Of a DNA stretch of 64,000 bases, positions 30,996-33,258 are shown piece by piece; within the stretch, counting starts at the first letter, position 1; every line of letters starts with the position of its first letter. Source of the DNA: Cyanobium sp. PCC 7001 (GTDB lineage Bacteria; Cyanobacteriota; Cyanobacteriia; PCC-6307; Cyanobiaceae). The notes under the pieces were generated by a model. The model did no database searches. It was not told where the DNA came from and saw only the letters and a list, made by a program, of their open reading frames with translations. Both the position numbers and the translations under genes were made by a program. The DNA lies in assembly GCF_000155635.1 (NCBI RefSeq), contig NZ_DS990556.1, positions 2,738,607 to 2,802,606 on the forward strand, in the 5' to 3' direction.

Positions 30996-32030
30996 ATGGG
31001 AAGATCGCCCAGGCCCGCACCGGCGTTGGGATCTGTCGCGTTGATTCCCCTGCGAACACCCCAGGAGGCCCAGCGCCCCACCGCCATCGCCCTCGGCAGT
31101 TTCGATGGTCTGCATCGCGGCCACCGGCGCGTGATCGCGGCGGTCACCGAGCCCGCGGTGGCGGACGGGGTGCCGCTGGTGCCCACGGTGGTGAGCTTCT
31201 GGCCCCATCCCCGCGAGGTGCTGCACGGCGAACCGCGGTTGCGGCTCGATCTGCCCAGCGAAAAACTGGAGCTGCTCGAACCGCTCGGCGTCCGCCAGCT
31301 GGTGCTGGTGCCCTTCGACAGGCAGCTGGCGGCGCTGGATCCTGAGGCCTTCGTGGACCGGGTGCTGGTGAACCAGCTCGACAGCCGCCGGATCGCGGTG
31401 GGCACCAATTTCCGCTTCGGAGTGAACCGTCAGGGCGACACCGGCACCCTGGTGGCGCTGGCGGCCGCCCGGGGGATCGAGGTGGCCGTGGTGCCGATGC
31501 TCACCGATGGGGAGGAACGGCTCAGCAGCAGCCGCATCCGGCGGGCCCTGGCGGCGGGAGATCTGCTGGAGGCCGAGCGGCTGCTGCAGCGTCCCTACCG
31601 CTTCCGCGGCGCGGTGGTGCAGGGTCGGGGTCTGGGTCGTCAGCTGGGCTGGCCCACCGCCAATCTTCAGGTGGACGGCCGCAAGTTCCTGCCGATGGAA
31701 GGGGTGTACGCCGCCCGGGCCCAGGTGGATGCGGCTGGACCCTGGTTGCCGGCGGTGATGAACCTCGGCCCCCAGCCCACCGTGGATCCCCTCGCCCCCT
31801 CCGCCGTGGAGGTGCATCTGCTGGACCGCAATCTGGAGCTCCATGGCCGCCAGCTCCAGGTGGAGCCGGTGGCGTTGCTGCGCCGTCAGCAGCGCTTCGA
31901 TGGCGTGGAGGCCCTGAGCGCGCAGATCGCCAGGGATGCGGCGCGGGCGCGCTGCCTAACCGCCGGGGTAGGCGTGGGTGAGGCCCCAGGCCATGAACGT
32001 GGCGATGCCCCCGAGCAGCAGAATCCCTGA
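30996..32030 (+). CDS. ribF: Bifunctional riboflavin kinase/FMN adenylyltransferase
   Basis: A 344-residue enzyme making FMN and FAD. The adenylyltransferase domain has GSFDGLHRGH (~34-43), FWPHPREVL and GTNFRFG; SSSRIRRALAAGD links to the kinase domain (~200-310) with GRGLGRQLGWPTANL and GVYAARAQV, LHLLDRNLELHG-type end. Conserved sequence ends near IARDAARA (~318). The last ~25 residues are unlike the family and run over a small gene on the other strand (31956-32072), so the normal stop seems to have been lost. The first ~15 residues are also non-conserved and the start is uncertain. Confidence 0.94.
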   Translation: MGRSPRPAPALGSVALIPLRTPQEAQRPTAIALGSFDGLHRGHRRVIAAVTEPAVADGVPLVPTVVSFWPHPREVLHGEPRLRLDLPSEKLELLEPLGVRQLVLVPFDRQLAALDPEAFVDRVLVNQLDSRRIAVGTNFRFGVNRQGDTGTLVALAAARGIEVAVVPMLTDGEERLSSSRIRRALAAGDLLEAERLLQRPYRFRGAVVQGRGLGRQLGWPTANLQVDGRKFLPMEGVYAARAQVDAAGPWLPAVMNLGPQPTVDPLAPSAVEVHLLDRNLELHGRQLQVEPVALLRRQQRFDGVEALSAQIARDAARARCLTAGVGVGEAPGHERGDAPEQQNP

Positions 32031-32072
32031 CACCAGCACCAGCATCGGGTTGTCCGGACCGCCTTGTTCCAT
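31956..32072 (-). CDS. Small single-helix membrane protein (38 aa)
   Basis: A 38-codon frame from ATG at 32072 to TAG at 31956. A short polar start (MEQGGPDNP) is followed by one clean membrane helix (MLVLVSGILLLGGIATFMAW) and a short GLTHAYPGG tail. It looks like the single-helix subunits that attach to thylakoid complexes (Psb, Pet, Psa and Ndh families), but I do not recognise which, if any. It lies opposite the unusual 3' extension of ribF, overlapping it by 75 bp. Composition and hydropathy are better explained by this frame than by the ribF tail. Confidence 0.65.
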   Translation of the reverse strand: MEQGGPDNPMLVLVSGILLLGGIATFMAWGLTHAYPGG

Positions 32073-32163
32073 GGCCTTGCTGACGGGCCGCGGCCCCCGG
32101 GATTGCGCTCCAACCTAGACAGTCCTGGCGGTGCCGTCCGTTTTCATCCCTCGCCGTCCGGCC

Positions 32164-33258
32164 ATGGTGCTCCCCCCCCTCTCGCCGCAAGCCGCTGCCG
32201 ACACCCCGGCGCTGCGGCGGTTGCTCGATGCCAATCTCGACCGTGCCCGCGAGGGCCTGCGGGTGCTGGAGGACTGGGCCCGCTTCGGCCTGGAGCGGGC
32301 CGATCTGGTATCCCGCTGCAAGGACCTGCGCCAGCGCCTGGGTCGCCTGCATGGGGAGGCCTACAAGTTGGCGCGCCACACCGCCACCGATGCCGGGGCG
32401 GGGCTGACCCATCCGGCCCAGGCGGAACGGCAGCGGCCCCAGCAGGTGGTGGCGGCCAATGCCTCCCGGGTGCAGGAGGCGCTGCGGGTGCTGGAGGAAT
32501 TCGGGCGCGGCATCGATCCGGTTCTGGCGTCCGAGGCCGCCGCCATCCGCTACACCCTCTACGACCTCGATGCCGATCTGCTGCGCGCCGGCCAGGGCGC
32601 TGCGGCCCGCCGCCGCCGGCTGGAGGCCTGCCACCTCTACCTGGTCACCAGCCCGGTGCCCGATCTGGACGCGGTGGTGGCCGGCGCCCTGGCCGGTGGG
32701 GTGCGGCTGGTGCAGTACAGGGCCAAGCCCGAGAGCACCGGCCCTGGGGGTGCTCCCCTCACCGATCGGGAGCGGCTGCAGCAGGCCGGAGCCCTGCGCG
32801 AGCTCTGCGCCCAGGCGGGCGCCCTGTTCATCGTCAACGACCGCATCGATCTGGCCCTGGCGGTGGATGCCGATGGCGTGCACCTCGGCCAGGGCGACCT
32901 GCCGCCGGCCCTGGCCCGGCGGCTGCTGGGCCCCGACCGGCTGATCGGCCGCAGCACCCACGCCCTGCCGCAGCTGCAGCAGGCCATCCAGGACGGCTGT
33001 GACTACGTGGGGGTGGGGCCGGTGCAGGCCACCCCCACCAAGCCGGGCCGCCAGCCGGTGGGACTGGCCTACGTGAGTCAGGCGGCCCAGGCCTGTCCGA
33101 TTCCGTTCTTCGCCATCGGCGGGCTCACGGCGGAGGGCATCGCCGCCGTGCGCCAGGCCGGTGGAGAGAGGGTGGCGGTGGTGCGGGCGATCACCGAGGC
33201 GGACGACCCGGCGGCTGCCAGCCGGCAGCTGCTCTCGGCCCTTGGCCGCAGCAGCTGA
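32164..33258 (+). CDS. thiE: Thiamine phosphate synthase with ThiD2-type N-terminal domain
   Basis: A 364-residue protein. Residues ~1-155 are the helical ThiD2-type extension common in cyanobacteria (LLDANLDRAREGLRVLEDW, VVAANASRVQEALRVLEEFG). Residues ~160-360 form the ThiE barrel that joins hydroxymethylpyrimidine diphosphate and thiazole phosphate: VRLVQYRAK, FIVNDRIDLALAVDADGVHL, GRSTHALPQLQQA, YVGVGPVQATPTK, FFAIGGLTAEGI. ATG 32164 was chosen; a GTG at 32131 would add eleven residues. thiS follows after 116 bp, so the two probably share a transcript. Confidence 0.94.
   Translation: MVLPPLSPQAAADTPALRRLLDANLDRAREGLRVLEDWARFGLERADLVSRCKDLRQRLGRLHGEAYKLARHTATDAGAGLTHPAQAERQRPQQVVAANASRVQEALRVLEEFGRGIDPVLASEAAAIRYTLYDLDADLLRAGQGAAARRRRLEACHLYLVTSPVPDLDAVVAGALAGGVRLVQYRAKPESTGPGGAPLTDRERLQQAGALRELCAQAGALFIVNDRIDLALAVDADGVHLGQGDLPPALARRLLGPDRLIGRSTHALPQLQQAIQDGCDYVGVGPVQATPTKPGRQPVGLAYVSQAAQACPIPFFAIGGLTAEGIAAVRQAGGERVAVVRAITEADDPAAASRQLLSALGRSS

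Follow-up and report, generated by a model that had tools for sequence, protein, structure and literature searches.

We identify the minus-strand frame at 31956-32072 of the window, by which we mean the whole 64,000-nucleotide stretch of Cyanobium sp. PCC 7001 DNA analyzed here, as very probably ndhQ, the gene for subunit Q of NDH-1L; from sequence comparison we put this reading at about 94%, with translation and NDH-1L membership of the product being predicted. The frame starts with ATG and encodes 38 residues (MEQGGPDNPMLVLVSGILLLGGIATFMAWGLTHAYPGG) with one predicted membrane helix at residues 9-34, and AlphaFold2, supplied with a 30-row family alignment, modeled a single helix over the same residues with loose ends and a mean pLDDT of 86.8. 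The original prediction of a hidden 38-residue membrane protein, encoded on the minus strand opposite the tail of ribF, was of a real frame, as judged by conservation, hydropathy, and the AlphaFold2 helix; its guess that the protein had the shape of a small photosynthetic or NDH subunit can now be given a name, NdhQ of NDH-1L, through PDB matches and longer NdhQ elsewhere. NdhQ itself is already known, and has been since 2011; the window gene is a further ndhQ.

We call the frame ndhQ because it matches NdhQ chains in the PDB, because longer NdhQ proteins in other families and an intermediate form within the Cyanobiaceae connect it to them, and because NdhL and NdhP are present in the genome. 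The best PDB matches of the single 38-mer were 6khi_Q (E 6e-4), 6l7o_Q (0.0012), and 6hum_Q (0.0095), followed by integrin beta-3 at 0.83; the alignment to solved NdhQ is short, at 33 residues, and its E modest. Profile A1, built from 30 Cyanobiaceae relatives (30 rows), found NdhQ at 5.5e-7, and the nearest non-NdhQ chain was PsbX at E 0.37. That weak contact with PsbX chains speaks for the idea that the frame does encode a small membrane protein, but one belonging to a different complex such as a photosystem, whose likeness to NdhQ is mere helix resemblance. We consider this very unlikely: the best NdhQ chain scored nearly six orders of magnitude above PsbX and the weakest about three, the match covers both ends as well as the helix, and the window protein belongs to a series with the long NdhQ sequences. 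PsbX itself was rejected as a candidate on these A1 scores.

The longer NdhQ proteins that make up this series carry an N-terminal [ND]RG[IS]M stretch; all 10 loci examined in other cyanobacterial families encode one (for example MSDLNRGIMKFEGADSPVAIVLSAVLVLGGVGLLIYWALHAAY), with the stretch reading NRGIM in seven, DRGIM in two, and NRGSM in one. The stretch is absent from the window NdhQ and, among 30 loci of the window's family, is kept solely in L019, a Cyanobiaceae locus with the intermediate form NDFNRGIMRFDGADHP; we treated it as a variable trait that does not exclude membership. The window genome (G000) encodes NdhL (E 7.1e-28) and, at G000:C1:1637875, away from ndhQ, NdhP (phrog_2173 profile, E 8.4e-15), and A1 matches only one place in it at E <= 0.01. 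The expectation that automatic annotation would miss the frame is borne out in an indirect way only: a Pfam scan of the 38-mer returned no family at E <= 1, an NCBIfam scan returned just an unrelated signal-peptide model at E 0.12, far under its cut-off, and the Synechocystis gene bears the provisional ORF name "Norf6" in a passage of PMC5126843.

The frame is conserved among relatives, which had been proposed as a check. Of 60 genomes searched with the single sequence, the window's own included, 51 gave a relative at E <= 1 and 45 did so at E <= 0.01; the order ribF(+)/ndhQ(-)/thiE(+), with ndhQ antisense, is present in 30 of 30 loci of the window's family; and A1 matches at E <= 0.01 in 283 of 400 family genomes. 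We also collected 80 loci from named genomes, some of which had already supplied loci to the family set of 30, and kept the 73 with the motif, dropping seven; ribF and thiE each lie antisense to ndhQ in 72 of those kept. Their titles name Cyanobium, Vulcanococcus, and Synechococcus, among them Synechococcus sp. WH 5701. Locus L086 (CALPNT020000126.1) is titled Bifidobacterium breve and has a Cyanobiaceae ribF-ndhQ-thiE locus; the title is probably wrong. Because ndhQ adjoins neither ribF nor thiE in any of 10 loci from other families, its place between these genes looks like a family trait, and gene order backs orthology inside the family only.

The remaining 117 of the 400 family genomes, some of them complete, gave no match at E <= 0.01, though A1 was built from the same family. 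In the ribF-thiE stretches of six of these genomes no frame fitted A1 (best E 1.5), and a hydropathy scan of the same stretches found no NdhQ-like frame: it returned a single hydrophobic antisense piece, of 26 residues, in L231, which lacks the motif, and in L232 the gap offered hardly any sequence for the scan. The six (G029, G101, and G128 of genus g18; G017, G123, and G145 of genus g6) are complete or near-complete Cyanobiaceae with NdhP present and with no ndhQ, at ribF-thiE or elsewhere, at E <= 0.01. As all 10 genomes searched for NdhP, the six among them, proved to have it, NdhQ seems to have been lost, or to have changed beyond recognition, in genomes without a match while NdhP was retained.

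The gene convergent with ndhQ is ribF (30996..32030, plus strand), encoding a 344 aa bifunctional riboflavin kinase/FAD synthetase (Pfam FAD_syn and Flavokinase; NCBIfam NF004160). Full-length RibF models stop at residues 318-323, and the extension of some 25 residues originally noticed past the conserved end is indeed there, as 24 residues and a stop over the frame. The antisense overlap covers 75 nt (31956..32030) and is codon-aligned, the last 24 RibF residues and stop lying over NdhQ residues 15-38 and stop. One triplet, at 32028..32030, has double use: read on the plus strand it is the TGA stop of ribF, and its reverse complement on the minus strand is the TCA codon for NdhQ Ser15. RibF enters ndhQ by 72-75 nt in 14 of 30 family loci and 51 of 73 named-genome loci; in the remaining loci it stops near or before the ndhQ stop, and in 16 of the 30 family loci the overlap is 27 nt or less.

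We compared 63 distinct sequences, selected for an antisense frame open over at least 80 codons. Across 20 codons of the overlap, pN/pS is 0.22 when they are read as ndhQ and 1.16 when they are read as RibF; outside the overlap the ndhQ frame gives 0.34. The ndhQ frame is under purifying selection, and given the contrast between the two frames the RibF tail is a passenger. It has to be weighed whether the strand opposite the end of ribF is instead open by chance in a G+C-rich genome and happens to look hydrophobic, as the overlap is codon-aligned and long spurious antisense frames also occur opposite ribF. This is highly improbable: purifying selection acts in the ndhQ frame and not in that of ribF, the frame is still conserved in the 16 of 30 loci where ribF hardly overlaps it, and no other of the window's 153 frames of 25-60 aa with an ATG start reaches the hydropathy of ndhQ (19-residue mean 2.31). 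We give almost no credence to the RibF extension being functional in its own right, as a new C-terminal tail to which ndhQ is secondary: the tails like GVGVGEAPADEGGDAAQQQNP in loci with 72-75 nt of overlap resemble each other and the stop triplet is nearly constant, but the likeness follows from the ndhQ codons, relatives without the overlap have no tail, and selection on the tail was rejected on its pN/pS.

The double-use codon is nearly fixed. In 39 G+C3-rich window frames, 8.2% of TCN codons are TCA, yet Ser15 is TCA in 60 of 62 serine-bearing sequences, the highest share of any fourfold codon there (0.41-0.95 for the rest); three of the 63 sequences have TCC or TGG at this position, and in all named-genome loci with either codon RibF ends at another place. 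This near-fixation could stem from shared descent: loci in which RibF terminates sooner also often have TCA (12 of 18 serine-bearing loci, three of them with broken or cut ribF). In Cyanobium-type loci, ribF stays open across the 3' two thirds of ndhQ and terminates opposite the TCA serine codon, and the tail was presumably gained by loss of an earlier ribF stop.

Divergent from ndhQ is thiE (32131..33258, plus strand), which has an N-terminal ThiD2 domain, a GTG start, and an in-frame ATG at 32164. The spacer between the divergent starts (32073..32130) measures 58 nt to the GTG and 91 nt to the ATG. A consensus scan found no sigma-70-like promoter in 32073..32130, the terminator scan was empty, and no clear Shine-Dalgarno sequence was seen for ndhQ.

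As described in parts of PMC6992706 and PMC7021789, NdhP and NdhQ flank NdhD1 on opposite sides and touch NdhF1, by lipids and beta-carotene, and a passage of the former cites reports of NDH-1L falling apart when either NdhP or NdhQ is deleted. A section of PMC9283085 gives NDH-1L as NDH-1M plus NdhD1/D2, NdhF1, NdhP, and NdhQ, and one of PMC12038448 has NdhQ appearing with thylakoid-bearing cyanobacteria. We infer that the window NdhQ is translated and inserted into NDH-1L, where it would form a one-helix subunit at the far end of the membrane arm, against NdhD1 and in contact with NdhF1. By analogy with the published Thermosynechococcus work its role may be stabilizing, helping to keep the NdhD1/NdhF1 module on a complex that drives cyclic electron flow and respiration.

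NdhQ-like peptides also occur in viruses. A1 was run on viral contigs and confirmed 142 stretches. We kept 80, whose peptides, 39 of them distinct, are mostly 27-31 residues long (for example MTKTFISSILLFGAIGTFIYWGLTHAYPQH), with four cut to 21 residues at an inner ATG by the extraction script. Overall the viral peptides span 26-34 residues and comprise the helix and a WGxxxAY end, without the host N-terminal part. A second scan yielded at least 78 further viral loci, some on contigs already in the first set, each with a profile match. We assembled 86 viral loci from the 80, fetched with the host-only profile, and six isolate stretches fetched with viral peptides, which form the independent part. 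Among 13,604 frames, the host-only profile picked exactly one per locus in 86 of 86 (E 5.7e-14 to 7.9e-5, the next at 4.3), and in three further isolate stretches, again fetched with viral peptides, it matched at E 3e-11, 4.8e-8, and 5.3e-6. As a control, seven of eight column-shuffled profiles found nothing at 0.01 and one found a single frame at 0.008. Comparison of the viral with the host profile gave a probability of 98.6.

In the reverse search, a viral-only profile was run on 60 cyanobacterial genomes. Its sole match to the window genome at E <= 10 was the ndhQ between ribF and thiE (7.8e-11), and ndhQ was also its best match in the 12 congeners; the same profile was weak (2e-4 and up) or at chance level in other families and in 5 of 24 other genomes of the family. 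Against the PDB it returned NdhQ chains alone, at E 1.1 and 3, values not significant by themselves. The viral pN/pS is 0.40 over 27 codons in 41 distinct sequences; six of the 86 loci, missing the motif required by the script, were dropped. The window 38-mer had no match at E <= 1 among 50,697 phage records, which viral peptides do match, and one viral peptide found no PHROGs family at E <= 1.

Searched against these phage records, one viral peptide matched 28 at E <= 10, every one named as a Synechococcus phage or a cyanophage, and the same holds for all 70 matched by a first marine peptide; a second marine peptide matched 74, of which 72 were Synechococcus phages or cyanophages and two were Acinetobacter phages that we took as chance. 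Most of these single-peptide matches are weak, with E values between 0.1 and 10. In nine isolate stretches (S-SRM01, DSL-LC03, S-CAM9, S-SCSM2R, two ACG-2014j, ACG-2014h, ACG-2014f, and S-RIM12) no annotated gene covers the NdhQ-like peptide, and neighbors overlap its ends in several; eight isolates are classed as Kyanoviridae and S-SCSM2R only as Viruses. All 16 records tested have psbA-type genes and nine have NdhP, several of the records being possible fragments. At 207459-209450 of the S-SRM01 record the psbA-type match falls into three pieces, two with internal stops, as from an intron or insertion.

Downstream of the viral ndhQ-like gene, in 55 loci with at least 2.5 kb on contigs that are not independent, we found NdhP in 40, gnd in 34, and PTOX in 18. 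A member of phrog_2173, entered as of unknown function, matches NdhP in the PDB, and ndhP in cyanophages is mentioned in a passage of PMC10452541. The start of the phage gene overlaps the end of the upstream gene in L221, S-SRM01, and DSL-LC03. This upstream gene (L221:2886-2999) encodes 37 residues with an acidic end (phrog_2505, unknown function) and has relatives in 77 of the 86 viral loci.

We think it fairly likely that T4-like cyanophages of fresh and marine waters encode a shortened NdhQ, often beside gnd, PTOX, and NdhP. Paired with NdhP as a second one-helix clamp, this peptide would rebuild or hold the NdhD1/NdhF1 module during infection, when host genes fall silent, sustaining cyclic electron flow and ATP while the phage 6-phosphogluconate dehydrogenase feeds the NADPH pool; NdhQ would then be an unlisted auxiliary metabolic gene, missed for its shortness. 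We found no announcement of a phage ndhQ in the literature searched, which was one paper library: in passages of the cyanophage paper PMC10452541, "NdhQ" occurs only in a reference title, the review PMC5083919 has no "ndh" term, and a search on small unannotated cyanophage proteins gave no title on NDH. Phage upkeep of host cyclic electron flow via NDH-1L becomes testable with a 30-residue gene, often accompanied by NdhP. For Cyanobium-type picocyanobacteria the locus supplies an annotation rule, to look for ndhQ opposite the end of ribF and before thiE, and it offers a clean example from nature of 75 nt used codon on codon by two genes, with a serine codon of one serving as the stop of the other.

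Among the closest known systems is the NdhQ of Thermosynechococcus (chain Q of PDB 6khi, 6l7o, 6nbx, and 6hum), with which the window NdhQ has in common one helix, a D-x-P stretch before it, an alignable helix core, and a W-x-L-x-x-A-Y end. In contrast to that protein, the window NdhQ has 38 rather than 45 residues, lacks the NRGIM-type stretch at its N-terminus, ends in WGLTHAYP where the solved chain has WALHTAY, and is encoded opposite ribF. The 46 aa product of Norf6/ndhQ in Synechocystis PCC 6803 is likewise a small NDH-1L subunit, a likeness we draw from its description in part of PMC5126843. NdhP (PDB 6khi_P; phrog_2173) resembles NdhQ in being a one-helix NDH-1L subunit, on the opposite side of NdhD1, and is carried by cyanophages; the two are separate sequence families, and in the window genome the host ndhP lies elsewhere.
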